Assembly (NCBI GenBank): GCA_946699065.1
Contig: CAMPDV010000533.1
Coordinates: 1 to 64,000 of the forward strand
DNA from: Loxodes magnus
Taxonomy: Eukaryota > Ciliophora > Karyorelictea > Loxodida > Loxodidae
Direction of reading: 5' to 3'
Length of the DNA stretch: 64,000 bases
The notes under the pieces were generated by a model. That model made no database searches. It worked only from the letters and a program-made list of their open reading frames with translations, and had not been told where the DNA came from. The position numbers and the translations under genes were made by a program. Positions 1,701 to 52,850 of the stretch are shown one piece after another (within the stretch, counting starts at the first letter, position 1; every line of letters starts with the position of its first letter).

Positions 1701-1704
1701 AAAC

Positions 1705-3960
1705 TAAAAGAGTTTTTGACGTCTTTAATTGCAAGAACTGCTTCCTTCAAATGTAAACTTTAGTAAATGTTCTTAAATATTTTTTTAATCTTGTCTTGAT
1801 CTCATCATTTTTCTTTAATTAGTCTTTCTTTCTACTCATCTTTCGAATCTTTCTTTTTTGCTTTCTCCATTTCTAGAATTTCAAGTCATCTTGCTATTAT
1901 CTTTTTGTGAAATATTTTGATTTATAAATCTAAATACTCCAATTGAAACCTTGAAAATGAGTTTATATATTTTTGATCGTATAGTATGATAACCTTAAGA
2001 CATAATTTTAGATCTTTTGTATAATAAATCCTTATATTATAATAAATTTAAAGATATGTTTGAAAGTCTCATATTCTCCTCACATACAATAAGAATTATC
2101 AATAGGATAATGACGTTCTTAAAATTCTTACGATAATTATAAGATTAGGTTCTAAGTTTATATATGCTAATAATTTCTTTTCTAAACAATTTGTTTTACT
2201 TCGTATAGGTAATTTGTGAAAATTGTTAAGGATTATCAAACTGCTCAGCATATATTTTAGTTGTTTTAATTCTCATAAATTTTTAGTAGCTTTATTATAG
2301 AAATATTGTTTTATTTTCTCTCTTATATGGTTAGTAAAAGTTTTCAGACTGGTATTATTCTATTAATTATGCAGATTGATATTGTAAAGTTCTGATAATT
2401 TCTATACTTAATCATAATATTAAAATCCTTTTTTCTAGATGTTAATAAAAAGAGAGCCTATTGTTGATCTTGGAAAATCAATGTGTTCTTATTTTATAGT
2501 AGAATCTGAAGAATTTTATAGCCATTATTTGCTAAAAAAATACGCAATTCAGGCCTATATAGCATGACTCATTAAATGGTGAAATTGCTACTTAAAAAGC
2601 TTTTCTTGAAATCAATCTCATGCTTGATTCAATTCTTTAGAACTACAGTTACTCCTTTTCAAATACTTCATTGTATTAAATCTCCTCCAAATTCGCTTTA
2701 GGTAATGTAAAAAGTCTACATAAAGTTTTTTAATATCAAGGAGTTACATTCTTATATCTCATCAGTTAAAAAAAAGCTTTTTTCATTGCAGCTATATATT
2801 TGAATGTGACTTCTTTGCAACGGGGATTAAAATTATTCCTCTGATGTAGAAAAATCCTAAATATGTGACTTGTTCTTTTTAAGCAATTGGCTAATTTTCT
2901 AATCATAAATTTTAGATTTATTATTTCTGATTCTTCTCTAGAAATTATATGCATTCAGATTTGGTAGCACTGGTCTTTAAATGAGTTTATGCAAAAAATT
3001 GTTTCATTTATTAAATTCTACATCTACTTTGCAGATTTGGAAAGAAGAATCAAATAATCTACCCATCCTCTTCAAGCGAAGCTAGCACTCAAATTCTGGT
3101 ATTTGAATCCCATTTAGATAATTTTACTTTCATAATATCTAATTACTATATCATAATACAACAATGCTAAAACGGATCCATGTGAACTTCCTTTCCTAAT
3201 TCCATTGTTATATTATAATATTCTAGTGGTTGTTCCATCTATAATAAATGAAGAATTTAGGTTTTAATAAAGTGATTCTAAGACTTTTATTAGTCTGAGT
3301 GGTTGTTTGGCTCTCTTAAGTTAATAAAATAAAAGTCTTCTTTCTATTGAGTAAACATTTTTTCAACATCTATCAATGTTGCGATAATTTAGTTTTCCCT
3401 TTTGTTTATTTCTCATAGTTATCAATTATATATTTTATAATCCAAGATTATTAAATAGTTCATCTATTTTTCATGAATCCCATTTGAGAAGGGTGAATCA
3501 ATTTTCTCTAATAAATCAGATTATAAAGTCTTTTTGTTAAAGCTTTATCATATAACTTTAGAATAGTATTGAAATAGGTAGTCAGTTTTTCCTTTAATCT
3601 TAATTTCCTTTTTTTAAATATTAGAATTATTACTGAAGTATTTAATTCTTAAGGAAATCTTCCAAACTTTACATATTATTCAGAAAAGAGTGAATAATTA
3701 TTACCAGATATTATCTGCCATATTTCAGAAGTTCGCATTTTATTCCGTCTGGTTTTCCATTGGGAATTTCTTAGATAATAAGTTAAATTTGTTGTATGGA
3801 TAAAATGGTGATATGAAAGTTGAATTTGTTAAATACTATTGAATATTAAATCTATTTTGAATAACTAAGAAAGATCTATTATTGAGTTAGATTAAAGGTA
3901 GTTAAAAGCAAAATTCTCCCATTAATGAATTATTGTTTGATTTCTTAATTAAAGTTAATA
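1705..3960 (-). mobile_element. LINE remnant with reverse transcriptase domain (LINE-L)
   Basis: Read on the minus strand with TAA/TAG = Gln and TGA = Trp, an RT domain appears in order: PNGKPDGIKCELLKYG (about 3760-3710), the region before the palm at about 3640-3540, HPSQMGFMKNR (about 3500), LIDVEKMFTQ (about 3370), KEVHMDPFQHC (about 3200), a degenerate ADD position SLEEDG (about 3075), then VTYLGFFYIRG (about 2870), the usual YLG motif. A long C-terminal region follows to about 1740. Some frame changes occur, so it is a decayed copy. Its 5' part is displaced or interrupted by the LINE piece at 3961-5645. Confidence 0.65.
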
Positions 3961-5645
3961 TTATTTTTTATTAATTAAATTAAATTAAATTAAATAATGT
4001 TCGCTTTTCAGCTTAATAAAATAATTTTTATGATATCACTCTCATTCTGAAACTCTTAGGTCTTCATTATTGTTTTGATTTGATTTTTTTTAGTTTAGTT
4101 TCTCTTCTTCTTGTATCTTTGTTCATTCTAAAAATAATTATTTTAAGTCTTCTTTATTCAAATATTACTAATGGATTTATTTTTCCCTCAATCATTCTTA
4201 AAATCAAGTTATTTGTTAATGTTTTTGTTTTATGCTAGATAATGTTTTTTTAATCTTAAGATCAATATCTTCTAGGATTTATTTATTCTTTTTTGTTTCT
4301 TAATTTATTAATATTTGATTATATTCTAGCATTTCTTTTAAATTTTTCTCTATTTTTTATTAGTTTCATTGTTTATTGTATATTTATTATTTCCTTCTTT
4401 TCAGATTTATGTTTATGTGTAAATTTTATAATGTTTCTTGTAACTGAAGACTGTTTTCTTTTATAATTTATCTGTAATACTAGCAATCAAAGACGTGTTC
4501 AAATTTTTCTTATTGCTAACAAATGCATAGTATCTACTCTTAATCAATATGTCTTTCTGAGAGATCAACTCTAAAAAATATTAATTGCATTCTTAGTCTA
4601 TAAATTAATTTTTATTCTTTTATTAATTCTTTGTTTGTTGTTATATAAGTAATATTTTAAAATTTAATCTCATTTTTAAATTGTCTATAAATTATTTCGG
4701 CTGTTTTCATATCTTATATTCTCTATATTGTTTCCTTGAAAATTCTTTTTTGTATATTTTTGTATTTTTTTTTAGATTCTTTATTATAATTGTTTATGTT
4801 ATGATCTTTTATTTATTCATTGTTTATTTCATAGTATTTTTCAATTTTTTTAGTGTTTTTTATATTTTGAGTTCTATTTTTAACTCTATTTGAAAAGTTA
4901 TTAGAATTTTGTATCTTATCTACTTTTTTCTTTTTCTTGATCATTTCTGAATTAATCTTATAAATTTTTGTAGAAATTTAAAAATCTTTATGCTGTTGAA
5001 TCTTCAAATTTACATCAGTTGAAATCTATATACTATATTTCTTTAAATGATGCTTGTGGAATTTTCAAGTATTTTCTTAGGATTTATCTTTGTGCTATTT
5101 AGATTTTATTTTTTCATTTTGTTATTCCTAATTGAATACTATATGGGATTAATTCCGAGTAGTATTCTAATTTTGGCATTATAAATAATCTGAATAAGTT
5201 CTTAAAGTTAATTGGCTATTTTTTGTTATAGTTTTTAAAGAATTAGGATTAGAATATAAATATCGATTATTAAAATTTCTTGAAGAGGTACTCAATCTGA
5301 ACCTTTCTTCATTAAGTTAGTTTATTTGATATCCTAGGTATTAAATTTGTTATTTCTATTAAATTTTTTTTTCCTAATAGAAAAAGTTCAATCTCTTTGT
5401 TCGTTGTGTTTGTATTCTTGAGTATTTATATAAATTCGCATTTCTCCGTGTTAATATTAAGTCTTATTAATTTAAAAATGCTTTCGGCTTCGTTTAGTAA
5501 GATTTACATATTTTTTTTATTATTTGATATTAGTATTAAATCATCTGCTCAAGCAAATTTAGCATGATAAATTTTTGAATTTTATGCGCTAGTTTTTCAT
5601 ATTTTTCTAAATACCTTAATATTTTCAACATATTAATAAAACTCT
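3961..5645 (-). mobile_element. 5'-truncated LINE, RT C-terminal half and tail (LINE-U)
   Basis: The minus strand encodes KFAWADDLILIS (about 5560; the FADD/YADD catalytic motif of RT), KCEFIQILKN, then QIEYLF at the YLG position (about 5290), followed by a typical LINE C-terminal region (LFIMPKLEYYSELIPYS) to about 4010. The element ends in an ATTTA pentamer tail at 3965-3998. This half-RT lies 5' of the fingers region of LINE-L, so the two are separate copies, probably LINE-U inserted into LINE-L. Its 5' part, 4605-5645, is repeated at 26524-27570 by the tandem duplication. Confidence 0.65.
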
Positions 5646-6950
5646 TTCTTAATTTTTTAATCTTAAATTAAAAAATTAAATTATATTTGAAGCTTTAAAA
5701 CGATTTTACCTTTTTTATAAAGTTAATTTTGGATATTTTCTTGTTCAATTTATTTTATCAGTAAATCAAATAGTTTTATAAAATCTTTTATAAAAAAGTA
5801 GAGATATATTATTTTTAATTTAATTTTTTAATCAATTTTTATAGATATTATTAGATAGAAAATTTTAAGAAAATTATCTAAATATAAATTTTGTATCAGT
5901 AATACTAGTTAATCTAATTTTATTTTATCTATATAAATTTTGGTTTAATTATATAAATTAATATTTTAAGTAATTTTTTCTAATTTTTTTATAATAAACA
6001 TTTAACATATGATTATAAATAAAAAATATTATAACATTTCTTTTATAAATTTGAATATTATTTGTTACTTAAATTTATATTATAAAGCTTAAATAAAAAA
6101 TAATTAAAATAATTTTTACTATTTATTTATTTTATAAATTTGGATATAAAAATTAGTATATTTTCGTAGAATGATAAATTAAATACTAAATTATTTTTAT
6201 TAACTTTTAAAAAAATTATGTAAATTTAAAATATATTAATTTGCTATTTTATATAATTTTAGACTAAATTCTTTATCTTTTAGAAGTCTAATTTTATAAA
6301 TTTTTTTGCTTATTTAGGTAAAAAATTTTGTAATTTCTATAAATTATTTAATTCTTTACCATTAAAAAAAATTTTTAAATTAGAATAAATTAAAAAATAA
6401 ATTATTTATTTTTTGTTTAGCACTAGCAATATGTTTTAATATATATATATATATTTTTTTAATAGAAATTTACTATGTTGTTATGCTTTACCAAACCAAT
6501 AATTTTAAATAAACAATTTGGCTATAATTTTTGCATTTTTATAAAGCAATATCAGTAAAAATATTATATTTTCAATTTAAATTCTGTTTAGTTTATATAA
6601 AAAAAATTTAATTTAATTATAAACGAACATTATTTAATTTAATTTAATTTAATTATAAAAAAGTAATATCATAATTATTTCTAAATTTAGAGCTTATAAT
6701 AAAAATTGTAGATTTTAAATATATTAATAAAAGTGAAGTTTTAAAATAATTAAATTTAATGATATTATAGTAATAAATATTGTAAATTAAAAAATGCATT
6801 ATAATTTAAGTGTTTAATTATAATACTTATATGATAAATTTTTATTTGCTCATAAAACTATGATATGCTTAAATATATTATTTCAATAATAAATTAACTT
6901 TAATATATCTTAAAGCTGCTAACAAATTTTAGAATATAATAGGAGAGTTC
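5646..6950. other. AT-rich stretch without recognised gene
   Basis: Extremely A+T-rich with long A/T runs, a short (AT)n at about 6440-6455 and no protein-like frame I could support. At 6624-6656 it contains a copy, in plus orientation, of the last 32 bases of the LINE-U tail (CGAACATTATTTAATTTAA...), inverted relative to 3966-3998. It may mark the end of a mostly decayed plus-strand element. Confidence 0.5.
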
Positions 6951-8305: not shown

Positions 8306-8384
8306 AAAGTGTAAAAATTGTTAATTACTTATATGAAATATGGTAAAAACATATTAAAATTTATTATATTAATTATAAAAAGAT

Positions 8385-9314
8385 TAAATTAAATTAAAGT
8401 GTTAAAGAAGGATCGTCTACTTAAAAGCTTCCTACTTCCCTATCCAACCAATAGGAACTTGATCTCTAGGTGGTCTTCTCCTCCATTCACTGTCAAGTTT
8501 TCGGAATGGTTGTCTCTTCATATAGCTTGCTTTCTTCTTATAAATTCTCCATTCCTGGTTGGGTAAAATTAGGTTAGGCCATTCCATATTTTCTATTAAA
8601 TCTCCTTTCTCTTCCAGCATCGTCTCCATAGGTGGTCTGTTCTCCTGCAGATGTAACATTTTTTCCTAAAATATTTCTCTTTAGTTTGCTCAATTGGCTT
8701 ATTATTCTCTTATTCGATCTCCATTGGGATAGATTGCATAGCCTATTATTTTACACTTGTCTCTAATTTTTCCAATTTGATATGAATATTTTCATTCGAT
8801 TCGTATAATTGTTCCAGCTGCCTATCGAATTCGTCAATTCTGATATTCATTGCAGCCTGGTTTAAGTTTCTAGGAGCATGGGTTTCCTCATCTTCTAAAT
8901 GCTCTTGCTGTTCTTAAGCTAGTTCTTCAATCTGTTTTTCCAGATCTTTATTTTTTCCTATTAATGCTAAGATAAGCTTAGCCATTTCCTCCTTCGTCAT
9001 TCCTAAGATTTGTTCTTTATTGAGATCTCCGAGGTCCATGTAGGGGTTGAATGTCCTAATCTAGGCCTGAAAGTTACTAATCTTTTGCTTCTTGGGAAGG
9101 TCCTCAGTCGATATTGTTGCATGTTAGTGTTTCTAGGGTTGTCTGGGGGATGTTGTTTAGAGTTGCTCCTATATGGTTTAAGAAGAAGGTTTGGCTTTGG
9201 AAGATGACGTGTGGTGTTTAGAAATTTAGGTTTCCTGCTTCATCTCTTCCTTTTTAGCTTAGAAAGAGGTGGTATAGAAGCCCTTTTTGAAACCTTCTAC
9301 CATATTTTTTTTAT
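8385..9314 (-). mobile_element. Gag-only retroposon
   Basis: A 930-bp element flanked by a 14-bp direct repeat (AATTATAAAAAGAT at 8371-8384 and 9315-9328). In sense orientation it starts just before the ATG of a Gag-like ORF and ends in an AATTT-type pentamer tail, the signature of LINE-driven retroposition. It has no RT or endonuclease. The same element lies at 30301-31230 because of the tandem duplication, and a related one with its own target duplication is at 37468-38436. Confidence 0.8.
8400..9303 (-). CDS. Gag-like protein with CCHC zinc knuckle (frameshifted near C-terminus)
   Basis: ATG 9303-9301 begins MVEGFKKGFYTTSFQAKKEE. Then follow a Gln/Thr-rich stretch, a conserved helical segment (NPYMDLGDLNKEQILGM, KEEMAKLILALIGKNKDLEKQ), HAPRNLNQAAMNIRIDEFDR, a coiled-coil-like segment, and a zinc knuckle CYICRRTDHLWRRC (C-x2-C-x4-H-x4-C) at about residue 228. 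The matching protein at 37473 is intact. Here a one-base shift after the knuckle moves the last 50 residues (FRKLDSEWRRRPPRDQVPIG, VPIGWIG) into another frame. CCHC knuckles bind nucleic acid in Gag and LINE ORF1 proteins; packaging or chaperoning of the element's RNA is inferred. Confidence 0.75.
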
Positions 9315-9505
9315 AATTATAAAAAGATAATATTTAAAATGCTAGCTTTGAATAATAGAATTGTTTCAAACTATATAAAGATTTATATAAAAAAATAAAA
9401 ATATATAAGATTAGAAAACGTTGAAAAGAACTTTGTGACTAAAATTATTTAAACAAGTTAAAAAAATTGAATTTATTTATTATTTTAAGTATATTAGAAA
9501 AAGTT

Positions 9506-15487: not shown

Positions 15488-16084
15488 AAAATGAGAAGTC
15501 AATTTTGCAATTTTCGGAAGAAATTATGAGATTGTCATTTATCTTTTAGCAATCCTAAATGTAAATGCGGATAATACAGCATGTATGAACTTATTATTAT
15601 ATATATGCATTATAAAAACTTAAAGGAATAATTTTAATATCAGGTTGGAAATAATTATTTAAAAGATTAATACTTTTTGCTTAGATATATTTAAAATAAT
15701 TCCCTAAAATATACCTGGGACATTTATATCTTTAGGCTAAAATTTATTATAGAATAATGCTATCTTTCTTAGTTTATCTCTTGGATGTATTATATGAGAA
15801 AGAAAGAGTAGGATTCAAGTAAAAAATAAACTGAAAAAGAGAGAATGCAGATTTTTATAAAAGTTTTAAAATATTTTTGATTGAAAAAGCTTTTTATATA
15901 AAAGATGTCCATAAACTCTTAAAGTTAAAAATATTTAGTAATTTATTATTTTAGATAGCAAAAATTCAATTTTATTTCAAGCTTATTAAAATAATGTATT
16001 AGATAAATGGTAACTCAATAACTGATTTTAGAATAGAAAGAAAGGAATATTAAAAAATCAAAACAATAATAAATTAAGTTATAA

Positions 16085-16706
16085 AATTTTTAAGCATAGA
16101 AGCAATAGCCCGTATGTAGGATGTGATAACTTGCTCCAAAAATAGAAGTCAATGGCTACACCATTTTGCTATGGATCTACTTAACTACCTGAGAAGCAAA
16201 AAATTCAGAAAAAAGGAAATTTGCTATTTGCTTAAACTAAGAACTAAATATAGTGGTGCTGCAGAGACACTAAAAGTAACACTTATTAGAAAAAATATGT
16301 GCAGTTTATGTAAAAATTGTATAGACGGACGATTTCCACATAAATGAGGCTTTTGGATGAAATCAGCGAGAAATGAGATATATTAATTTGAAAATTAAAT
16401 GAAACAAAACTCTATAATAATAGAGTAAATATAATAATTAATAAAATAAATTTAACCAAATAAAAGAGGGAATCATTATTTTTTTAAACTGAGATCAATC
16501 ATTAAAAGTGAATTAAAAAACCTTAATGGGTGATAGCATTAAAGATTTTTTTAAAGCGAGTAAAAAGAAAGATAGATAAAAAAACAAAAATCTCTTTTTC
16601 CGCCAAATTTATAAGATTAATAATTATTAGATATAACAGAAGAGGAATTAAAAGCAGCAGAAGAACATCAGAGATACTAAGTAATTAAAAATATTTTTAG
16701 AATTTA
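16085..16706 (+). mobile_element. LINE ORF2 3' relic
   Basis: The frame LLNYLRSKKFRKKEICYLL..LRTKYSGA, then CSLCKNC and PHKWGFWMKSARNEIY, matches the C-terminal region of the full LINE (PPNYLRYNKNRKEEICYIFR, CPFCNDARENKRHIIEKC). Further on, LLDITEEELKAAEEHQRYQ resembles the acidic LINE C-terminus. About 250 bp present in unit 2 (39170-39420) are missing here, an internal deletion at about 16604. RT and endonuclease parts are absent. Confidence 0.6.
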
Positions 16707-16805
16707 CTGAAAGTTAAATACGGTTTCTTCTTTCCGTCGTAGTGATCTAATTAATAATTTTCACGTTAATTTAATTAATTAATTTATAAGATAAAATAAA
16801 ATAAA

Positions 16806-24515: not shown

Positions 24516-24689
24516 TTTGAATTTAAAAGATTATTTAAAAATGTATGAATCAGAAATATCATAATAATTAATATAAATATTTTTTTCTATTAATATTAAA
24601 TAAAAAATCAGAAAGTAAAGTATATGTAAAAATGATTTATAAATTAATAAATTAATTAAATTGACGTAGTATTCCATTGTTTGGTTTAC

Positions 24690-25185
24690 CAAGAAAAAAT
24701 AAAGAAACAAATTTAATTATTAATAGGCTAGAAATGTTTCTGGCTACATCTAATCTTTTTGATTCTTATCTTCTTCTCTCCGTTTTTATAATCAAAATTG
24801 ATTGCCTTCACTCTTTAAATTCTTTTAATTCTTCCAAAGGCTGGAGTTAGAGAACATTCCAATATTCGTGTCAAATGACTCAATTAGGCTAAATTCTTCT
24901 AAGTAATAATTGTTTTTATCTCAGTCATGTCTTTTTTCTTTCTATTCCCTGATCAGAATAACGACATATAAAATCAGGATAACTCTGAGATCAGGATTAT
25001 AGTTCCCTCTAGTCGACCTCTCGTACCAATAGAGAGAACCCTCAAAAAAGTAAGACTCATCACACAATGGGCCTGTCCTGGCTTGCTTGTGGTGGCATCT
25101 ATTGTAAGAGTATTTGCAATGCAGATATGATTATACCGGATTAACTACCTGGTCAACTAGAAACCAGAATCTATTTTAAATTGAA
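24690..25185 (-). CDS. Coding-like block, unknown product
   Basis: Richer in G+C than its surroundings. A minus frame from ATG 25098 reads MPPQASQDRPIVWWVL, REVDQRELQSWSQSYPDFIC, then LEELKEFKEWRQSILI and RRQESKRLDVARN. The repeat copy at 52386-52850 has a 9-bp deletion and a 10-bp insertion in the same region, so at least one copy is frame-shifted. No family recognised; it could be an old retroposon. Confidence 0.3.
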
Positions 25186-30221: not shown

Positions 30222-30300
30222 AAAGAGTAAAAATTGTTAATTACTTATATGAAATATGGTAAAAACATATTAAAATTTATTATATTAATTATAAAAAGAT

Positions 30301-31230
30301 TAAATTAAATTAAAGTGTTAAAGAAGGATCGTCTACTTAAAAGCTTCCTACTTCCCTATCCAACCAATAGGAACTTGATCTCTAGGTGGTCTTCTCCTCC
30401 CTTCACTGTCAAGTTTTCGGAATGGTTGTCTCTTCATATAGCTTGCTTTCTTCTTATAAATTCTCCATTCCTGGTTGGGTAAAATTAGGTTAGGCCATTC
30501 CATATTTTCTATTAAATCTCCTTTCTCTTCCAGCATCGTCTCCATAGGTGGTCTGTTCTCCTGCAGATGTAACATTTTTTCCTAAAATATTTCTCTTTAG
30601 TTTGCTCAATTGGCTTATTATTCTCTTATTCGATCTCCATTGGGATAGATTGCATAGCCTATTATTTTACACTTGTCTCTAATTTTTCCAATTTGATATG
30701 AATATTTTCATTCGATTCGTATAATTGTTCCAGCTGCCTATCGAATTCGTCAATTCTGATATTCATTGCAGCCTGGTTTAAGTTTCTAGGAGCATGGGTT
30801 TCCTCATCTTCTAAATGCTCTTGCTGTTCTTAAGCTAGTTCTTCAATCTGTTTTTCCAGATCTTTATTTTTTCCTATTAATGCTAAGATAAGCTTAGCCA
30901 TTTCCTCCTTCGTCATTCCTAAGATTTGTTCTTTATTGAGATCTCCGAGGTCCATGTAGGGGTTGAATGTCCTAATCTAGGCCTGAAAGTTACTAATCTT
31001 TTGCTTCTTGGGAAGGTCCTCAGTCGATATTGTTGCATGTTAGTGTTTCTAGGGTTGTCTGGGGGGTGTTATTTAGAGTTGCTCCTATATGGTTTAAGAA
31101 GAAGGTTTGGCTTTGGAAGATGACGTGTGGTGTTTAGAAATTTAGGTTTCCAGCTTCATCTCTTCCTTTTTAGCTTAGAAAGAGGTGGTATAGAAGCCCT
31201 TTTTGAAACCTTCTACCATATTTTTTTTAT
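30301..31230 (-). mobile_element. Gag-only retroposon, duplicate copy
   Basis: Copy of 8385-9314 with the same flanking AATTATAAAAAGAT repeats and pentamer tail, carried along by the tandem duplication rather than by a new insertion. Its Gag-like frame starts at 31219-31217 and keeps the CYICRRTDHLWRRC knuckle and the same C-terminal frame shift. Confidence 0.8.
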
Positions 31231-31421
31231 AATTATAAAAAGATAATATTTAAAATGCTAGCTTTGAATAATAGAATTGTTTCAAACTATATAAAGATTT
31301 ATATAAAAAAATAAAAATATATAAGATTAGAAAACGTTGAAAAGAACTTTGTGAATAAAATTATTTAAGCAAGTTAAAAAAATTGAATTTATTTATTATT
31401 TTAAGTATATTAGAAAAAGTT

Positions 31422-36901: not shown

Positions 36902-37467
36902 TAATAACTAAATAAAACCTATATTTTATAGAGATTTAGTCCTAAGAATTAACAAAATGACCACATTTAACATTTATGCTAAACAACTTTAAAATTCATC
37001 TTAGTTTCCAGAAATAACTTATTCAAAACTTAATAAGCATTACGTAAAAGAAATTAATAGTTTATATAAAATGAGAACTCAATTTTGCAATTTTCGGAAG
37101 GAATTATGGGACTGTCATTTCTCTATTAGTAATCCTAAATGTAAATGCGGATAATATAACATGAATGAACTTATTATTATATATATGCATTATAAAAACT
37201 TAAAGGAATAATTTTAATATCAGGTTGGAAATAATTATTTAAAAGATTAATACTTTTTGCTTAGATATATTTAAAATAATTCCCTAAAATATACCTGGGA
37301 CATTTATATCTTTAGGCTAAAATTTGTTATAGAATAATGCTATCTTTCTGAGTTTAATTCTTGGATGTATTATATGGGAAAGAAAGAGTAGGATTCAAGT
37401 AAAAATAAACAGAAAAAGAGAGAATGCAGATTTTTATAAAAATTTTAAAATATTTTTGATTGAAAAA

Positions 37468-38436
37468 AAAATATGGAAGGTCTTAAGAAAGGCTTCTACA
37501 CCACCTACTCCAAAGTCTAAAAGGAGGAGAGGAAGCAGGAAGTTCTAAAGACTAAAACCCAAACCTAGATCCTCTAATAATAACATTCTCCCCAGAAGAC
37601 CTAAAAATAACTCTAAACAACTCCTCCCAGACAGCCTCAGAAACATAGCCATGCTACTACATCAACGGAAAATCTTCCAAAGAAGCAGAAGATAAGCGAC
37701 TTTCAGACGCAAATTCGGAACTTCTCACCATATATGGACCTCGGTGAGATAAACATTGAACAAATACTCGGAATGGCTAAAGAGGAAATGGCTAAATTAA
37801 TTATAGCGTTAATTAGCCATAACTAAGACCTAGAGAAATAGGTTATGAAGCTTGCCCAAGAACAACAATGACACTTGGACGACGAGGAGATGCATGCTCC
37901 TAGAAACAAAAACTGGGCTGCCATGAATATTCGAATTGACGAATTCGACAGGCAGTTGGAATAGCTATATGATATGAACGAGAACATGCACATCAAGTTA
38001 GAGAAAATTGAAAACAATATTAACAATATTAACCTTAAAATGGAGAATATCAAGAATGATATCAAGATCTAGACAGCACACTCCGTTCCAATGGAGTACG
38101 AAGAGGTCTAGAATAAACAAATCGAATTAACTAAAGAAAGATACTTTAAGAAAAAATGCTTTATCTGTGGAAGAATAAACCATCTCTGAAGGAAATGCAG
38201 ATAAAGAAAAGAGATTCAAAAGAAAATTTGAAACGAACTAACCTAATTCTACCCAACTAGCAGTGGGAATATTTATAGGAAGAAAAGCAATATTCGGAGC
38301 AATCCACTGCGAAGACTTGAAAGTGACTGGAGGAACAGACTACCAAGAGTTCAAGTACCTATCAGTTGGATAGGGAGTAGGAAACTATTAAGAAAACAAT
38401 CCTTTCTCTGAATAACTTAAATTTAATTTAATTTAA
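37468..38436 (+). mobile_element. Gag-only retroposon, intact, unit 2 only
   Basis: Absent from unit 1, where 15871-15895 is the empty site. Flanked by a 15-bp direct repeat TTTTTGATTGAAAAA at 37453-37467 and 38437-38451. Contains one complete Gag-like ORF and ends with AATTTAATTTAATTT directly before the target repeat. A clean case of recent LINE-mediated retroposition of an element without RT. Confidence 0.85.
37473..38411 (+). CDS. Gag-like protein with CCHC zinc knuckle, 312 aa
   Basis: ATG 37473 to TGA 38409-38411, 312 codons without a frame break. Starts MEGLKKGFYTTYSKVQKEER, then a Gln/Thr/Pro-rich segment, a helical segment (YMDLGEINIEQILGMAKEEM, LISHNQDLEKQVMKLAQEQQ), HAPRNKNWAAMNIRIDEFDR, a coiled coil (MNENMHIKLEKIENNIN), the knuckle CFICGRINHLWRKC at about residue 233, in which the Trp is encoded by TGA, and a basic tail (RRLESDWRNRLPRVQV). 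The stop lies 25 bases from the tail. It probably binds the element's RNA; there is no RT, protease or endonuclease. The paralogue on the minus strand at 8400-9303 is similar over the whole length. Confidence 0.85.
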
Positions 38437-38644
38437 TTTTTGATTGAAAAAAGCATTTTTATATAAAAGATGTCCATAAATTCTTAAAGTTAAAAATATT
38501 TAGTAATTTATTATTTTAGATAGCAAAAATTCAATTTTATTTCAAGCTTATTAAAAGAATGTATTAGATAAATGGTAACTCAATAACTGATTTTAGAATA
38601 GAAAGAAAGGAATATTAAAAAATCAAAACAATAATAAATTAAGT

Positions 38645-39535
38645 TATAAAATTTTTAAGCATCATAGAAGCAATAGCCCGTATATATGATGTGATAACTT
38701 GCTCCAAGAATAGAAGTCAATGGCTACATCATTGAGCTATGGATCTACTTAACTATCTGAGAAGCAAAAAATTCAGAAAAAAGGAAATTTGCTATTTGCT
38801 TAAACTAAGAACTAAATATAGTGGTGCTGAAGAGACACTAAAAGTAACACTTATTAGAAACAATATGTGCATTTTATGTAAAAATTGTAAGACGGACGAT
38901 TTCCACATAAGTGAGGCTTTTGGATGAAACCAGCGAGAAATGAGATATATTAATTTGAAAATTAAATGAAACGAAACTTAATAATAATAGAGCAAATATA
39001 ATAATTAATAAAATAAATTTAACCAAATAAAAGAGGGAATCATTATTTTTTTTAAACTGAGATCAATCATTAAAAGTGAATTAAAAAGTCTTAATGGGTG
39101 ATAGCATTAAAGATTTTTTTAAAATAAGTAAAAAGAAAGATAGGATAAAAAACAAAACTCTCTCTTTCCGCAAAGCAATAGAAAAGGATCACAGAGTTGA
39201 TTCAAGTAAACATACTTGAATATATAAAGAACTTGTAAAAAATAGGAAAAAAAATTAGAAAAAAAGAAACGAGAGTATTTGAATATTAATATTTAATAAA
39301 ATTTAAGAAAATCAAAAAAAGGTACACAGATAAAATAGAATAATTAAGTTAGATAAATCAACTAAGAATCAAACGAATAACAATCAATTTTCAACTTCTC
39401 CAGATAGATTTTTTAGAAGAAATCGATCCAAATTTATAAGATTAGTAATTATTAGATATAACAGAAGAGGAATTAAAAGCAGCAGAAGAACATCAGAGAT
39501 ACTAAGTAATTAAAAATATTTTTAGAATTTACTGA
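38645..39535 (+). mobile_element. LINE ORF2 3' relic, longer copy
   Basis: Counterpart of 16085-16706, with 250 bp more. It shows NYLRSKKFRKKEICYLLKLR, a partly decayed zinc-finger region (MCILCKNC), and further on LLQIDFLEEIDPNL followed by LLDITEEELKAAEEHQRY. This is similar to the last 200 residues of the ORF2 at 42001-45890. Several frame changes. Confidence 0.6.
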
Positions 39536-40459
39536 AAGTTAAATACGGTTTCTTCTTTCAGTCTTAGTGATTTAATTAATAATTTTCACGTTAATTTAAT
39601 TAATTAATTTATAAGATAAAATAAAATATAATGGTACCTAAGAAATAACAGATCTCTCTCAATTATTAAATAAAAAAATAAGAACATAATCTAACTTTAG
39701 AATTAATTATCTTATTAAGATAAAGGAAAATAATCTTAGAAATCTTTTGCATAATGAAAGCATTAAAGAACATTTAATCTACAATAAGAATAAAAAAACA
39801 ATTATTAAAATTTAAAAATTAGAATATAAATTAGAAAAAATAAGTGTATAACTAAATATTTATTTTTGACTATAGAAAAATAAAATAAGCAGTATAAATC
39901 GTAAATTGAACATGAACTGTTTCAATTGATAAATGTTTTGCTTAAATTTCTCAAATATTTAATTTTAATTTTGTCAGTTTTATTTTCAAATAAAAAAATG
40001 CTAAGAAAATTAAAAATTATCATAAGAAATTAATTAAGAACCAGCAGATAACAAGGAAGTATATCTACGGATTAGAATAAAATGAATAATAATAGAATAT
40101 AAGTAGAAAATACTCTGTTAAATATGACAAAGGTAGCATCATTATAAAATATGCTCATGAAAAAGCGAAAAATATAAAAGGAATAAAAGAAATATATTAA
40201 AGCCTATTTTAAATATAATAAAATTAATCAGGCTTAATATATAGAAAAAATTTTTATTATAGTAAATTTAGCAATTAAAAAATAATTTTTAGATGAAATA
40301 GTCTCAACTGTAAAATGCAAATTATAAGCAAGGATGGAGGACAATGAAGTCTTAAGCTATCCTTCAAGAGGAAAAATTTTCAAGTTTACTGGATTTAAAG
40401 ATAAACTTTTTAGATTATAAACTTCTTTTAAGTTTTGTTTTAATTATATATATTAAAAA

Positions 40460-41603
40460 ATGGTTAGTTTCAAGAAGGGTTTTTATACCACTCCTCAGAG
40501 TAGGAGAGAAAACCTGAAGCACTTTCTTTTACCACGTCTTTGCTTTAATTATTCCAACCTTCTTTATTATGCATGGAAACCAGACTAATAATGCAAGACC
40601 TCAGACTACGCAGGACCAAACTAACTGACCGAACGAACACGAAATAATAGAACGAATAATAGAAAAAAAATAGCAATATACCCATGATTGGTCGAACTGT
40701 ACTAAAAGGAGGATCACAAAATAAGAAAGGAATGTGGCAAAAAAAGAAAACAACCTAAGTAATAATTTAACAAAATAATGAACAACTCATTTCAGCCAAC
40801 GTCCCTGAAGAATAAATGTAAAGGGTCTACTAAAATGCCTATGATGATTTATCAGAAATGGTGGCCGCAATTTACTTTAACCATTACTTGGAAAACACTG
40901 ATTTAGTAGAGAAAAAGGCCAAAGACTAAGAAGTTATACAAGTGTTTAGAAATCAAATATGGAAGGATTACGGACAAGCAATGGCGAAGTTCATATTGAA
41001 ATAAAACGGAATTGTATACGTGGTATTTAACAATGAAGAAAGATACTAACATTTCACTTAATTCAGGGAATGAACGTTCAAAGGAGTTAGAATTCCTATC
41101 TAAGCTAGAAACTAATTGGAATATTTTGACATTCATAACTACCCAATTTACTTCACAATCAACGAATACTCAAATATGAAGGAAGTAATGGAAATAATAA
41201 GATAATATGGAAAATCAAGAGGAGAGATATAGCATACATATCCAAACACAACAATGCTAACAGGGAGCAGTGTAGTCTACCTAGATTTAAAGGATGTAGA
41301 CGAAGCAAAAAGGATACCAGAAGTAATAGATTTGAATGGAAACGAAATGAGAATATAACACCCAGTAAATTTTATCTGCTGCCTATGTAAAGTGAAAGGG
41401 CACACGAACAGAAATGCAGAAGGGTAGAAGCAGCAAAAAGGAAAAAGCTACATACAAGAGAATTAGAGATGCTTGAAGGAGAAGTTATTTTAACAATAAA
41501 CAAACCAGATTTTGAAGCAAATCAAGCAAATAAGAGGATAATTGGAGAAGAAGAATAAATGGTTATAGAGGAATCAAGGGAAGAAGAGAAGGAAATAAAA
41601 TGA
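40460..41603 (+). pseudogene. LINE-A ORF1, Gag-like, with frame breaks
   Basis: ATG 40460 starts MVSFKKGFYTTPQSRRE, like the Gag-only elements. The best reading changes frame by about 40569 (QTTQDQTNWPNEHEIIERII), again near an A7 run at about 40740, and runs ISANVPEEQMQRVYQNAYDD, an RRM-like stretch (NGIVYVVFNNEERYQHF, FKGVRIPI), then a zinc knuckle ICCLCKVKGHTNR at about 41400. There one missing A separates it from the last Cys (CRRVEAAKRKK). It ends at TGA 41601-41603. ORF1 proteins bind LINE RNA. Three single-base frame differences suggest decay or homopolymer sequencing errors. Confidence 0.65.
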
Positions 41604-42000
41604 GGAGAATAGAAAAATAATTAAAACAACTAAACAATTAAATAATAAAAAGTTTTTTATGCTTAAAGAATAAATAAAAATTATTTTTATCAAAATGGAA
41701 TTGGACATATGTAAGACAGAGGGATAGAGAAATGTTCAAATAATTAAATAAAATAGAAAACAATCAACTAAATAATAAGATATACCATAAAGCAAATTAG
41801 AGAAAAGGACAGGATAGGTGATGGTAAAAACGCTAAACCCTAACAAAAGAAATAAGAAATAAACAAAATAGTATAATGGAGTATGTCAGGAAAAACGTAA
41901 ATAAAGAAAAAAAGCAAAAAGAAATAGAACAAACTCAAGAAGAAAAAGAATAAGATGCAAGATAAAAGTGAGAAGAAAGAAGTAAATTGAAGAAAATTCA

Positions 42001-45000
42001 ATGAGAATGTACTATGCTAAGAAACCGATAAACAAAAATGAACAATTATCCGACTTCAACTAATAGGAAAAGGAAAAAGAAGAAGATTAGAATAGATAAG
42101 AAGAAGGAAAAGGTAGATAATAAGATGAAAAAGACAAAAAAGGGGAAAGAACTAATAAAGAAAATAATATGGAAGCATAGAATGATAGATAAGAAGAAGA
42201 AAAGGTGGAGAAGGAAGATGAATAAAAAGAAGAATAAGGTGAAGAGGAAGTAGAGGGAATGAGTGTAAAAAAAGATTAAGAATAAGTCATAAAAATAGGG
42301 ACAGCAAATGTTAGGGGAGTAAGAAGTGCAAAAGAGGTACTAGCCAAATTCATGACTCAAAAAAGTATCCACATAATGGCAATATAAGAAATTTAGATTG
42401 AAGACTAAAAAGATATGTGTAATATAGCAGGATATAAAAACTTAATAAATGTGGGATCAAAAAAAGGAAAAGGAGTAGCATTCTATATTAGAAACGACAT
42501 ATGTAAGGAAATCAGAGAGATATAGAATGAAGTAAACCAAATGACGCTCTTTGGAGGAGCGAGAGTAATGGCAATAGAAATAATGAAATAATTAGCAGTA
42601 ATAAATGTCTACGCTCCTGTTGCAAATAACAACGAACAGTATGAGCCTTTCTATAATTTAGTGAATGAATTTAAACTATAAGCAATAGAAAAAGGACTTA
42701 ATATAATGATAATAGGAGACTGAAATGCGCACATAGAAAAATGACTGCCAAAGAAAACAAATTCAGCAGGAAAGAGAATGACACAGTTTATGGAACAGAA
42801 TAATTTAATATGCCTAGACCCAACTGAAATAGGTACCTTTATTCACTAAAACAATGAGTATAAAATAGATTACTTTTTAATCGAAGAGAGTATGAGAGAA
42901 AAGGTGTTAAAGAGTGATTTTATTACTCATACGTAATAGGTGACCATAGGCCTGGTATTATATAGGTAAAGATGGGTAATGAAGTAAGAAAGCCATAAAA
43001 GATAGCAAAAATAAACTACCTACTATTAAAGAAAAAAGAGATATAAGAAAAATTTGAAAGATTTATACAAGAAAATCTCTAAGAAGAAGAAATTGATAAC
43101 CTAAACGGCACATAGACTTATAAATGATGAAAGAAAAAGATATAAGAAGGAGTTTAAATAGTATGTGGAAAATTCAAAACATAAAACTCTAAGATATATA
43201 AATATTCAGAAACAACAAAATAGTGTAATAAAATCTTTAGAAAATGCAGCAAACAATTAAAATAAAGGGTAAAGAACAGAGAACAAATAAATGAAAATCA
43301 ATAAATTGAGAATCAAAGAGAATACCAAAGAGTAAGATAAGAATACATTTAATCAAGATAAAAAGATAAAAGAAACTAACTAAACCTATTTATGGACAAT
43401 GTAAATAAAGGAAGTCTAACAGATATGTGGAAGAAACTAAAAAGCTTACTTAATAGAAAAAATAATTAATGAGTACCCTTATTAAAAGAAGATGTTAATA
43501 CTTTCAGGGATGAATGGTAGAAACTGTATGAAGATGGCGATAATACGCTGCCAACTAAATTCTTAAACAAAAGATAAATAGTGGTAAACGAATATGAAAT
43601 TTGAGAAATCATCAACTAATTGGCGAAATGAAAAGCAGCAGGACCTGATGAAATACAAGTAGGCACAATATTAGCAGGTGGGAAAAAACTAACAGAAGTA
43701 ACATGTAAAATGATAGTTAAGATGATTTAAGAGGGAGTAATACCTTAAGAGATGAAATAATAATACATAATATTAATATACAAGAAAGGAGGACAGATGA
43801 ACCCGATGAATTATAGACCAATCTCTTTATTGAATCATGCTTTAAAAATAGTAGATGCATGAATTTTCTAGCAACTATAAGGATATCTGCATAATGATGA
43901 AAGCGAATATTAATATGGCTTTAAAAAAGGAAAATCATGCTCACTATAAATTTTCAACCTAAGAATAGTATAGGAATGATCAATACGGAACAAAAAAGAT
44001 TTTTTCGTAATATTTGTTGATATTAAGAAAGCGTACGCCTCGGTGCAAAGAAAAGATATATGATAAATCCTAAACGATCTAAAAGTACCGGAATAGATAA
44101 TTAAACTCCTAGCAAACTTCTACTGTGAAGAAGAAATTAAACTTAAAATCAATGAATAAATAGCAAAATCATTCGCGACGAATAAAGGACTAAAACAGGG
44201 AAGCATAACGTCGCCAAGACTATTTAACTTAATAATAGCAAGACTTCTCCATAGCTTGGAAGATTAAAAGCTAGGAATTACGATAGAATTTAAAAACTAA
44301 GAGGGATGAACACAAGAAATATATGCAGGATGTTTTGCATATGCAGATGACCTAGCCTTAATAAGTGAATGAGAATAATTAGAGGAAGTAATCAAAAATT
44401 TAATCTCATGGGCAGAAAAATACAAACTGGAAATTGCAGATAAAACAAAATGAATGATATGAAAAGCAGCAGAAAATAGAAACTGAGAAAATATAGGCAA
44501 TACTATTGAGGTAGGAAACTTAAGAATCGAAAGAGTAACGTCCTTTTAGTACTTAGGGCATATAATAGAAGAAACCATCAGCTTTGAAAAACGCATGGAG
44601 AACAGACTAGAAGCAGCATAAAAGATGTAAACATGAATACTGGGTAAAATAACAATGAATAAGGAATTAACACCATATAACGCAGGTATAATGATAAAAA
44701 CGTTCGTAAGCTCAGTATTCAGCTATGGGACAGAAGTTATCCCATATTGTGAATAATTTTTAGGAAAATAAGTGATGGAACAATTAGAAATAATATAGAG
44801 AAGATCTTTACGAGCAATCATAGATGCCCCTTTCTAAGTGTAAAATGAGATGCTAGAATACGAGTTACAGTTTATGAAATTTAAACATTACCTATGGCAG
44901 AAAACGCTGAGATTAAGAGGCAGACTAATAGGTAACTAAGGAAAAACAGTAGATGGATTAATGTTCGACCTAAGTAAAGAAGAGAACTTTATTTTTGAAC

Positions 45001-45890
45001 AATACTGCACGACAATAAAATTAGAATTAAAAATTGAAGACAAAAATATATTTATAGATGATGGTAATAATAATCAAAAAGGGAAGAAAAACATTAATTG
45101 TGCAATTTGAGAACATAGAGTATACATAGAAGATAGAGAAAGAATGGAGTAAATGATAACAACTCTACAGTATAGAAAAACATGATTTGATGAATATGTA
45201 GTAGGACCACCCAACTACCTGAGATACAATAAAAATAGAAAAGAAGAAATATGCTACATATTTAGAATAAGAACGAGATGTAATGGGAGCCAGGATTGTT
45301 TAAAAGAAAGACACCTAGTTGCGACAAGCAAATGCCCTTTCTGTAATGATGCAAGAGAAAACAAAAGGCATATCATAGAAAAATGCTCAGAATACAAAGA
45401 AAGTAGATAAATATGTATTAGAAAGTTAAGAACAATAGGAGTAGAAAGACAAGGAATGGAACTATTTGATATAATATGAGGTACGGCAAAATTCGAAAAA
45501 TTCATTAGAACCTAAGAAGAGTAAAAAAGAGCTAAAACTGATTTGATAATAAAAGATTATATCAAAAACATATTAGAAAAAAGAAAAAAAGGATACTTAG
45601 AAAAGAAAATTGAATAAAAAAAAGAAATAGGAAAAGATTATAGAGCAGGAAAAGGATAGTTTTTATGAGTTTATAAAAGCTTGATTAAGATGAAAAGAAT
45701 TAGAAACGAAAATTAGCAAAGTATGTAAAAAAAAATAATGGACGCTTGTAACAAAGAATCAATAAAACGTAGATAGATAGAAGACAAAAGAACAAGAAAT
45801 ATTGAAGAAGAAAATGATGAAGATATGGAACTAATAAGAGAAGAATTTTTATTACCTGAAGACTTACTTGAAGAAATAGACATGTATTGA
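42001..45890 (+). pseudogene. LINE-A ORF2: APE endonuclease and reverse transcriptase, one frame break
   Basis: ATG 42001 opens an acidic linker, then an APE-type endonuclease from about 42290: KIGTANVRG, IMAIQEIQIED (TAA at the conserved Gln), NVYAPVANNNEQY, IIGDWNAHIEKW (TGA = Trp), KIDYFLI, and in the next frame IGDHRPG (about 42940). One base is missing or extra at about 42925. RT follows: LAKWKAAGPDEIQVG, NPMNYRPISLLNHALKI, YQYGFKKGKSC, FFVIFVDIKKAY, GLKQGSITSPRLFNL, FAYADDLALIS with the catalytic DD at about 44345, FQYLG, then a C-terminal finger CPFCNDARENKRHIIEKC. TGA 45888-45890 ends it. About 1295 codons, normal for this family. Confidence 0.9.
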
Positions 45891-45903
45891 AACATTTATT
45901 AAA

Positions 45904-45934
45904 GAGCTGCGCACCAACGAGGTGCTACGCGCTC
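45904..45934 (+). other. LINE-A 3' hairpin
   Basis: GAGCTGCGCACC, loop AACGA, GGTGCTACGCGCTC can fold into a stem with small bulges (GAGC/GCTC, GCG/CGC, CACC/GGTG). It is followed by a TTTA-type repeat tail. The same GAGCTGCG start is found at the ends of the short elements at 671, 24453 and 52116. In known LINEs such 3' structures are recognised by the RT; that role here is inferred. Confidence 0.6.
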
Positions 45935-45965
45935 TATAATCAAATTTATTTATTTATTATTTATT

Positions 45966-46790
45966 TATAAAAATAATTAATCTTAATATTTTTAATACTA
46001 ATAAATATCTTTTTAGCAATTTTTATTATTTCGTAAATTTAAAACTTTTAAAATATTTAAATTTTATTATTTTAAATATTTTACTTTATTTAAAATAAAA
46101 TAATCATCAACAGCAATTTATTTTTCATTTTTATACTAAATTAAAAAATGTTCTTAATTAAATATTAAGTTGGCTTATTTTCTTATCTCAGAGATTTGAG
46201 TCTGAATTAAGTGTTTTTGTGGTAATTTTAGCAATTTCTTAGGATTGTAAAGGTATAATTACTAGTTTTATAAAGATGTTTAAAATAAATAATTGATAGA
46301 ATATCTTCTAAATAAGATTTGCTATAATATTTAAAATGAATAAATAAATTATGTTTATATATAATTTCTTATAAATTAATTAAAAAATAGATAATTCTAT
46401 AAATAATCTCTGTAATTATTATAATGTTTAATCATCTTTTTTATGTAATTTAATTTATTAAAGTTCTTTAAATTTAAAATAATTATATCATCAATCTCAA
46501 TATTATAGTCTTATCCTTTTTCCTTTAATTATTTAGTTACATTTTTTTAATTATAAATCATAAAAAAACTTAAAAATTAATTAAAAATAGGTTTCTTTTA
46601 TTGCTTGGTAACAATAAAAAGTAAGGTGCATAATAAAACTAATGACTATAATATGTATTTAATATAAATCTTAATTTAGCTAAAGATTTATTTAAAGGAA
46701 ATAGAATATTTATTTAACTTAAGTTATGTTTATTAATCAAAATATTATATTATTTATTTGTAATAGCTAGTATTAATTATCATTATTATT
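45966..46790. other. AT-rich region upstream of F-box gene, duplicate
   Basis: Almost identical to 18490-19310. No gene seen. Confidence 0.5.
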
Positions 46791-47020: not shown

Positions 47021-47202
47021 GCATATAAAAGCTTTGTTTTCACAGTTGTTTTGATAATTTTAGGAAATTTGATTATATATTAATTATATCATAATTAATA
47101 TATTTTAATAGTTTCATTATCATTAATCCATCTAAATATATTTCCATATTTATTCTAACTTTATATTTAAATCTAATTTACTCATTTTTTATACAAATAA
47201 TC

Positions 47203-48882
47203 ATGGGACAAGTTTATAAATGCTTTGGATTTTAGAAGGAACATAGATAAGAGGAAAATAGATAAGAGGAAAATAGATAAGAGGAAAATAGATAAGAGGA
47301 AAATAGATAAGAGGAAAATAGATAAGAGGAAAATAGATAAGAGGAAAATAGATAAGAGGAAAATAGATAAGAGGAAAATAGATAAGAGGAAAATAGATAA
47401 GAGGAAAATAGATAAGAGGAAAATAGATAAGAGGAAAATAGATAAGAGGAAAATAGATAAGAGGAAGAATAATGATAGATAAACAATCAAAAAGATAAAA
47501 ATAAGAAATAATAAAAGTATACAGTTCATATAAACTCCTTACCTATTTACATCTTAGAACTAATATTTTCTTATTTGAAATTCGGATAAGTTTGCAGAAA
47601 TAAATAAGTATAAAAAAAGTGATTAAAAGTATAATATGATATCTTTTAAGTTAATACGCATAATATAATGAGAAAAATAAAAAAGACAAATAATAGTTAA
47701 GAAATATGTTTTTAAAATGAGGAAGAATAAGAATAAATAACCTAAGAAGATGCTCTATAACTTTTGAAAATAATTAAATAAAGCTTTAGTCAAATAGAAA
47801 AGAATAACTATAATTCTTTATTTTTAGATCTTAGAGAAATCGAACTTCTTGACTAATTTAAGAATAAAGATTAGTAATTTGAGAGAAAATTAGATGAAAT
47901 AATGTAATATCTTATTTAAATATTAAGAAAATTAAAAAAAATAGGGTAAGAGCATATATAAAAATAAGCAGTACTAAGTTATGGATAATAAATAAAATCT
48001 ATTTATTTTGAAGGAATATGTTGAAATAATTACATTAGTGAAGTTTTATTTCTATGCTCTAATTTATAGATTTTAAAAATTAAGAATTGCGATATTAAAG
48101 AAGAAAATCTTGCAAATATAAGCAAATTATAAAATTTAAAAGAATTTTATTTAGATAGTAATCATAAAAAGTTGATTGGATAATATTTATAATTTAATAG
48201 TGACTGCTAACTTTAAACTATTTCATTTTAAAGTTCTTACATTCATAAAAGTTAATTTTTGATAGATTATTTGAGATTAAAAGGAGAAAAACTAAGAAGA
48301 TTATATCTTGAAATTGGGGATTTAAACTCAGATCAATTAATTGCAATTTTCTAAAATAGTTAAAATTTAGAAGATATATAAATTGAATGATCTGAATAAA
48401 AGCATTAGAAATTATTAAAATATATAGAATAAAATTGTTTAAGCATAAAAAGCTTAAAATTATAATACTGTAAAATTGATAAATAATCACTCTTTTAATT
48501 TTTTTAGAACAATAAATCTAATATAGAAAAATTAGAATTTTATTATTGTAATTAAATAGATTTAGAAATAATTCAAATTATAATTTAAAGATTTTAAAAC
48601 TTAAAATAACTTAGCTTTAGTTAATTATAGAATATAGATTCATAAAGTATTGAATATATTTTCTAAAATAGTAAAAGTTTAGAAAAATTAGAATTAAATT
48701 TTTTAAAGTTTGAAAAAGAATTTAGATTAAAGAATAAATAAGATTAATTCTATGAGTTCTGAAGTAAATTACAAATTTTTGAACTATAAGGCTGCACATT
48801 TAATGGAAATTAAATTTCTGAAAATATGAGAAGGCAATTAACTGAGTTAAAGAAACACTTCCCAAGTCTTAGAATAAAATGA
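47203..48882 (+). CDS. F-box/LRR protein with expanded EENRQ repeat, 559 aa
   Basis: ATG 47203 to TGA 48880-48882, 559 codons in frame. MGQVYKCFGFQKEH (Gly2 and Cys7, possible lipid attachment) is followed by 14 perfect EENRQ pentapeptides (47251-47460). Next come the F-box core SLPIYILELIFSYLKF, CRNKQVQKKW, and an LRR array like that of the 19735 gene. It is 65 residues longer than that paralogue, exactly 13 extra pentapeptides. The repeat region is strongly charged and likely helical or disordered. Every repeat includes TAA as Gln. Predicted SCF substrate receptor; the repeat's role is unknown. Confidence 0.85.
47251..47460 (+). repeat. 15-bp minisatellite, 14 perfect copies
   Basis: GAGGAAAATAGATAA repeated 14 times without change, with an imperfect copy on each side. 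It lies inside the F-box gene and keeps its frame. The paralogue at 19735 has about two units and the copy at 1-183 about one, so the array is expanding. Perfect identity suggests recent expansion. Confidence 0.95.
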
Positions 48883-52170: not shown

Positions 52171-52385
52171 CTTTTTGAATTTTTGAATTTGAAAGATTAT
52201 TTAAAAATTTATGAATCGGAAATATCACAACAATTAATATAACTATTTTTTTCTATTAATAACTTAAATAAAAAATCAGAAAGTAAAGTATATGTAAAAA
52301 TGATTTATAAATAAATTAATTAATTAAATTAGCGTAGTACTCCATTGCTTGGTTTACCAAGAAAAAATAAAGAAACAAATTTAAT

Positions 52386-52850
52386 TAGTAATAGGCTAGA
52401 AATGTTTCTGGCTACATCTGATCTTTTTGATTCTTATCTTCTTCTCTCCGTTTTTATAATCAAAATTGATTGCCTTCACTCTTTAAATTCTTCCAAAGGC
52501 TGGAATTAGAAGGAGTTAGAGAACATTCCAATATTCGTGTCAAATGACTCAATTAGGCTAAATTCTTCTAAGTAATAATTGTTTTTATCTCAGTCATGTC
52601 TTTTTTCTTTCTATTCCCTGATCAGAATAACGACATATAAAATCAGGATAACTCTGAGATCAGGATTACAGTTCCCTCTAGTCGACCTCTCGCACCAATA
52701 GAGAGAACCCTCAAACAAGTAAGACTCATCACACAATGGGCCTGTCCTGACTTGCTTGTGGTGGCATCTATTACAAGAGTACTTGCAATGCAGACATGAT
52801 TATACCGGATTAACTACTTGGTCAACTAGAAACCTGAATCCATTTTAAAT
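52386..52850 (-). other. Copy of G+C-richer coding-like block
   Basis: Counterpart of 24690-25185, with a 9-bp deletion and a 10-bp insertion near 52490-52515, so the minus-strand frame is not continuous between copies. Confidence 0.3.

Follow-up and report, generated by a model that had tools for sequence, protein, structure and literature searches.

Short non-LTR retroposons with a Gag-like gene and no reverse transcriptase in the ciliate Loxodes magnus

The genome of Loxodes magnus probably harbours a superfamily of short non-LTR retroposons that code for a Gag-like protein, carry no reverse transcriptase (RT) and would be mobilised by the enzyme of a LINE, the best candidate being a family that we have called LINE W. 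We give this reading a probability of about 0.6. About ten diverged families of these Gag-only elements are found in this one protist, RT-less throughout and evolving under purifying selection. They seem to be more than broken leftovers, with an enzyme apparently borrowed from a separate element that has a similar tail, and they allow one to ask in a testable way why a parasite of a parasite retains a protein gene. Since the short elements of a ciliate that uses code 27 seem broken when read under the wrong code, standard annotation could miss them.

The elements were recognised in a stretch of 64,000 nucleotides (positions 1 to 64,000 of contig CAMPDV010000533.1, assembly GCA_946699065.1), referred to here as the window, and the genome searched was the 705.7-Mb assembly that contains it. 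An earlier note, made from the letters of the window, had proposed a non-autonomous family resembling HAL1 with LINE-U as a candidate helper. That interpretation is partly supported: what stands is a non-autonomous class with a Gag-like ORF, without RT and under selection between families.

Gag-only elements in the window

The features of the Gag-only elements A, B and C are the following.

37469 to 38435, plus strand: Gag-only retroposon A, made up of a 4-nt leader, the ORF and an (AATTT)n tail
37452 to 37468, plus strand: left 17-bp target site duplication of element A, ATTTTTGATTGAAAAAA
38436 to 38452, plus strand: right 17-bp target site duplication of element A, ATTTTTGATTGAAAAAA
37473 to 38411, plus strand: Gag-like ORF of A under code 27, 312 codons and a terminal TGA (38409-38411)
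38157 to 38198, plus strand: CX2CX4HX4C zinc knuckle of A, its four ligands invariant in six sequences of five families
15721 to 16055, plus strand: empty site of element A in the tandem duplicate, with a single target copy at about 15873-15888
8385 to 9313, minus strand: Gag-only retroposon B, with its ATG at 9303-9301
8370 to 8384 and 9314 to 9328: 15-bp target duplications of B, TAATTATAAAAAGAT
30301 to 31229, minus strand: element C, a copy of B in a tandem duplication of about 21.9 kb
30286 to 30300 and 31230 to 31244: target duplications of C

Element A is a precise insertion of 0.97 kb, whose ATG (37473) lies 4 nt after the element start. Both ends of the unit are fixed by the empty site, since the region 15721-16055 has the target only once and no element, and is identical to the joined flanks of A at 323 of 335 positions. 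The location of this empty site in the tandem duplicate indicates that A was inserted after the duplication of about 22 kb. The limits first proposed for A (ca. 37468-38436, starting just before an ATG and ending in an AATTT tail) were thus confirmed, and so were the target duplications, with lengths of 17 bp in A and 15 bp in B in place of the 14-15 bp initially given. The position proposed for B (8385-9314) and the existence of its tandem copy also held. B and C are one insertion that was carried by the duplication, so that the window contains two independent Gag-only insertions and not three. The window's copy of B is frameshifted near codon 252 relative to another copy of the family (L074), in the frame of which we found no terminal TGA like that of A.

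Direct duplications are extensive in the window, pairing ca. 6.1-18 kb with 28-40 kb and ca. 18.5-25 kb with 46-53 kb, at offsets of ca. 21.9-22.8 kb and 27.5-27.7 kb. There is also a tandem array of a 15-bp unit at 47177-47536 (17 registers listed). AATTT tails of further elements are located at 3972-3996 (minus strand) and 6605-6655 (plus strand); these two have a 3' end of about 66 bp in common (85%), and a scan for Gag motifs gave none in either. Old fragments of another LINE, V, are found at 38615-39612, 16616-16787, 24641-24776 and 52309-52444, three of the four hardly exceeding the last 145-180 bp or so, as if the 3' end of V were mobile alone.

Genetic code and reading frame

Loxodes magnus is a karyorelict ciliate with UGA as its sole stop codon, which is also read as tryptophan far from the poly(A) tail, and its MAC assembly has 706 Mb (PMC11441545). 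The genome appears to use ciliate code 27, with internal TGA coding for tryptophan, and the matches to RVT_1 (150 of 3,403 candidates scored) mostly had about eight in-frame TGAs each, up to nine. The ORF of A has internal in-frame TGAs at codons 133, 239 and 253 (37869, 38187 and 38229), and in the fetched loci of the family, window included, they were present in 40 of 40, 39 of 40 (one gap) and 40 of 40. Two of the three face TGG in B. A fourth TGA, at codon 313 and just 5' of the tail repeats, was found in 39 of the 40 loci (one has TAA). The 40 loci are the best-scoring among 1,099 candidates and include the window and its duplicated segments, so their full length is partly due to this selection; 32 were left at a redundancy threshold of 0.6%. 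The frame was kept to the C-terminal motif in 24 of the 37 loci that could be scored, the other 3 of the 40 not being scorable.

The reading under code 6, by which A would be broken by three TGAs, can be discarded, since all three are fixed within A and two have TGG as their counterpart in B; the up to nine in-frame TGAs of the RVT_1 matches also speak against it. The ORF described initially as complete is therefore complete in A under code 27 only, and the window's B has the frameshift mentioned above. As no frame is closed under code 27, an open frame is no evidence in itself, and the claim that the elements are coding rests on the substitution patterns described below.

Copy number, families and insertion pattern

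The earlier note had called for a genome-wide search. The codon pattern of the N-terminal motif KKGFYTT had 1,800 matches throughout the genome, compared to 0 for the reversed control pattern. Among the first 30 loci in contig order, 27 were Gag-only and fell into about ten groups; two (L076 and L077) were LINE-U over 1.4-1.5 kb, and one (L071) was LINE-U-like over its first 160 nt only and continued into a different body. The fetched loci extend 1.5 kb downstream and the absence of RT therefore rests on the element ends: 24 of the 27 either serve as a Gag-only reference themselves or can be aligned with one as far as its end, and the three loci of group F finish alike in a (TTA)n tail, at ca. 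0.94 kb or, after an internal deletion, at 0.63 kb. Group G (L057), which has no aligned Gag body, was called Gag-only by its start and an 11-bp flanking match. The lack of RT that had been proposed is borne out as well by the whole unit A and by the Pfam analysis of the Gag proteins. The elements are interspersed over many contigs, mostly 0.9-1.04 kb long and almost all ORF, with leaders of 4 to 16 nt 5' of the ATG.

Left and right flanks matched over at least 10 bp in 17 of the 27 Gag-only loci, at 878-1040 nt, and over at least 13 bp in 13 of them, while ten had no flanking repeat by the exact-match test. In family A, in which the target duplications are mostly 13-19 bp, matches of at least 13 bp were found in 24 of 27 deduplicated loci, whereas the shuffled-partner control had a mean of 8.4, a 95th percentile of 12 and a maximum of 17. 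These 27 loci are what is left of the 40 fetched after 6 were skipped and 7 sharing a flank were removed; some are still duplicates of one insertion, and 23 different duplications were counted by reading. One locus of the family (L047) is the insertion of the window's A in a duplicated segment, where the tail has grown to about 17 AATTT units.

Exact 3' ends of A numbered 109 in the genome. Nine of them are on contigs C1-C30, five with the 5' motif at the expected distance and four being partial A copies; none of the nine belonged to a LINE. Three of the four partial copies had duplications of 13-16 bp (two being one duplicated locus), and the fourth, L098, had none. Copies of A differ by 1.9% on average. 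Variable target duplications, a simple tail and 5'-truncated copies that share the 3' end are the traits of non-LTR retroposons. The elements differ from SINEs, which are non-coding, in that they code for a protein under purifying selection between families, and from processed pseudogenes, with their poly(A) tail, in ending in A/T microsatellites.

Two chimeras were detected among the Gag-only loci. The first (L050) has the start of B and the end of A, and in the second, family I (L064), the first 90 nt are 89% as in B while the body is E-like; this suggests template switching, judging from the alignments. We have also found one A element inserted within a Gag-only element of family F (L060/L061).

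The Gag-like protein

We use "Gag-like" as a label for the predicted knuckle protein only, with no claim on a capsid fold. From the N-terminus, the protein has the KKGFYTT motif, a polar stretch rich in Q, P and S, a stretch that looks like a coiled coil by eye, the CCHC knuckle and a basic tail. In the alignment of six sequences from five families there were 17 invariant columns, the four knuckle ligands among them. Pfam gave no family above the cut-off for the Gag proteins, the knuckle falling below it, and no RT. A profile compared with solved structures was weakly similar to coiled coils, ZCCHC8, retroviral nucleocapsids and the Gag of Ty3 or Copia (E 0.005-0.9). A search for RNA families gave a single match, below threshold and elsewhere.

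Since the loci were chosen by the KKGFYTT pattern, its conservation among them is not independent evidence. The six KKGFYTT codons had synonymous differences in 122 of 270 comparisons, versus 330 of 978 elsewhere and 38 of 140 at nt 36-100, and in its first ACC codon 0 of 45 comparisons differed. A conserved 5' promoter was considered as the cause of the motif; the synonymous variation argues against a constraint at the DNA level, a promoter in this region being still conceivable.

Selection on the ORF

Families A and B have diverged at 29% of their sites. The proposed frame gave a pN of 0.19 and a pS of 0.84 over 261 codons, with similar constraint in the first 130 codons and in the rest, while dN/dS in the control frames was 1.06 and 1.39. 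The pN/pS values between groups were 0.29-0.76 (pS 0.44-0.94), versus 0.61-1.59 in the control frames; the compared stretches were picked by protein similarity, which biases towards low pN/pS. The ten groups were set by eye, and with no row from G and no row for the D-F pair, nine groups carry this result. The pair E and F (pN/pS 0.61) was not separated from its control frames (0.61 and 0.86); both have their 5' half in common and may be close kin, as far as their sequences go.

Within groups pN/pS was 0.63-0.91, and within A it was 0.87 (32 non-redundant copies), where shared variants were no more constrained than private ones. Hence the test of dN/dS among copies suggested by the earlier note gave a double answer, constraint between families and nearly neutral change among the copies within them. 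Inserted copies thus decay almost neutrally, with purifying selection acting on the source lineages. The outcome that had been named as adverse at the start, chance 3' deletions of a LINE with no selection on the ORF, was not seen, and purifying selection between families was found.

The source of the enzyme

Two LINEs of the window are relevant here.

1676 to 3966, minus strand: 5'-truncated copy of LINE W, 83% identical to L107, with an (AATTT)n tail and an imperfect 16-17 bp flanking repeat seen by eye
40440 to 45970, plus strand: LINE-U, with APE and RT domains and a 5' start, MVxFKKGFYTT, as in the Gag-only elements

LINE W was found through its endonuclease (150 of 2,075 candidates scored) and has APE and RT in one frame. 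Nine of the ten 3' loci read have tails in which AATTT is mixed with AAATTT (three of the nine sharing a single flank), and the tenth, C15, has no recognisable end. There are 189 exact W 3' ends in the genome, and the copies differ by ca. 1-6% over the 5' stretch compared; by these divergences W and A both look young. The only 5'-truncated copy fetched (C48) has a 16-bp target duplication, which is the one clean case in W, while chance matches reach 17 in the control for A. The 3' ends of W and of the Gag-only elements have the repeat tail and a few bases in common, some W tails being AAATTT and not AATTT. The tails of families E to K are made of other repeats, and W is therefore not the helper of all. 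No knuckle of the forms searched and no KKGFYTT were seen in 4.8 kb of W (L107 and its upstream neighbour, the 5' end lying beyond). In a masked blastp, two Gag proteins matched W weakly (E 0.007 and 0.039), in a frame other than the presumed ORF. As a helper of the families with (AATTT) tails, namely A, B and in part D, W is a better candidate than LINE-U.

That LINE-U mobilises the Gag-only elements, as had first been suggested by its similar tail, is very improbable, even though its tail is also an A/T microsatellite and the same N-terminal motif starts it in six of the eight regions fetched for its 5' ends and in the window copy, because that tail is (ATTT)n following a hairpin of its own and none of the five copies with both ends (L099, L100, L102, L103 and L104) has a target duplication of at least 9 bp, the window copy matching over 8 bp only, while most A copies have one. 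The other two of the eight regions (L101 and L105) have no match at all to LINE-U. LINE-U apparently inserts without target duplications in spite of its APE domain. Identity of 3' ends with LINE-U or V was also tried as a sign of a helper and rejected, as blastn-short gave matches of 17-20 bases and three longer ones (49, 104 and 224 nt), the latter lying beyond the element 3' ends, in flanking repeats. In U' (L094) and the V LINE (L091), KKGFYTT was not seen within 4.5 kb on the 5' side of the RT, and LINE-U shares 60 nt of its 5' end with family G at 87% identity. We infer from this that the start of LINE-U more likely came from a Gag-only element than the reverse.

For the favoured reading, mobilisation by a LINE enzyme, the following steps can be proposed. 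The RNA would start about 4-16 nt before the ATG and end in short A/T repeats. The APE-RT enzyme of a LINE would then, most likely, insert a copy of it at the target by target-primed reverse transcription. The mobilisation in trans would go through a similar 3' tail, LINE W being the candidate source of the enzyme for A, B and partly D. The encoded protein would, most likely, bind its own RNA and help to form a particle, and we infer this binding, be its action in cis or in trans, as we do the identity of the helper. A more elaborate arrangement is a split partnership, in which an old RT-less Gag lineage would give an RNA-binding knuckle protein, one that W possibly lacks, and W-type LINEs the enzyme, with each partner depending on the other or profiting from it and LINE-U having captured the KKGFYTT module; we consider it somewhat unlikely.

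Origin of the elements

The elements could instead be processed copies of a host multigene family of zinc-knuckle proteins, with mRNAs ending in AATTT, that were retrocopied by W and were dead on arrival. Near-neutral change within families with constraint between them is what such copies would show, and the pattern in itself fits source genes of the host as well as it fits mobile masters. The short way from the start to the ATG and the tiny UTRs are also reminiscent of ciliate mRNAs, in which 3' UTRs are short (PMC11441545). On the other hand, the tails are A/T microsatellites of variable length and not poly(A), and about ten families with 1,800 motif matches, most of the sampled loci being Gag-only, do not fit well with host genes. 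The families moreover have 5' modules in common with each other and with LINE-U, and L050 joins B and A, which is what one would expect if the RNAs came together at one RT. We consequently regard an origin from host genes as unlikely.

Another possibility is that each family is a LINE without its ORF2 that has kept ORF1 and the 3' end and is moved by the parent LINE, as in HAL1. A coding plan with an ORF1-like protein alone, together with a tail of (AATTT)n that resembles the one of W, would agree with it, as would the approximately 20 N-terminal amino acids common to Gag and LINE-U. Without masking, L091 and L094 were weakly matched by Gag in blastp (E 2e-6 to 8e-4), but these matches vanish under masking and composition correction. 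The ORF1 of U and V reads as a different protein, with its own knuckle and RRM-like by eye, and a LINE ORF1 profile matched Gag over 17 columns only, those of the knuckle, with a probability of 1.5% (the U' row being probably out of frame). With that knuckle match and the blastp matches lost on masking, LINE ORF1 was rejected as the parent of Gag. Likewise, W, L108 and L109 have no clear Gag homolog in the parts read, the U and V LINEs share no 3' end inside the elements, and a LINE was at none of the nine A 3' ends mentioned above. Such an origin is thus quite unlikely, and mobilisation of an independent Gag-like lineage by a LINE enzyme is the reading that we prefer. Regions of C910 and C67 (L086, L088, L092 and L093) were sampled as possible further LINEs. 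On contigs C20 and C5131, RT domains recur at intervals of ca. 2.5 kb, so that pieces of LINEs are arrayed in the manner of a satellite.

Comparison with known systems

Few non-LTR retroposons code for a protein without coding for an enzyme, the examples being, to our knowledge, HAL1 and HeT-A. In the literature listings searched, we found no half-L1-, Gag- or ORF1-only elements of ciliates. Most interspersed repeats were left unclassified in the paper on this genome, the main text of which has no mention of gag, zinc, SINE, non-autonomous or ORF1 (PMC11441545).

HAL1 (half-L1) of mammals is a non-autonomous derivative of L1 with several origins that encodes only ORF1p (PMC5753468). Like HAL1, the elements described here encode an ORF1-type protein and no RT. 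Unlike in HAL1, their knuckle protein differs from the LINE ORF1s. As far as six LINE groups (U, V, U', W, L108 and L109) were read, W up to a point short of its 5' end and U' in a doubtful frame, none had a recognisable homolog of this Gag, and a parent of low copy number is conceivable. The likeness to HAL1 initially proposed therefore applies to the ORF1-only plan and not to homology with a LINE ORF1, which is limited to those N-terminal residues shared with LINE-U.

The TR-GAG elements of plants are non-autonomous LTR retrotransposons with a GAG gene only, while we have seen no LTR in the elements of Loxodes. In trypanosomatid retroposons, a 79-bp signature lies at the 5' end. It is common to SIDER and its relatives (PMC2323293). 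The 5' stretch common to the elements of Loxodes varies at synonymous sites as elsewhere, in contrast to that group, and the short elements are protein-coding. A further parallel is HeT-A of Drosophila, a Gag-encoding non-LTR element that is thought to use the Pol of another element (PMC5537684). HeT-A forms telomeric head-to-tail arrays and has a long 3' UTR, whereas the elements of Loxodes are interspersed, flanked by target duplications and almost entirely ORF.
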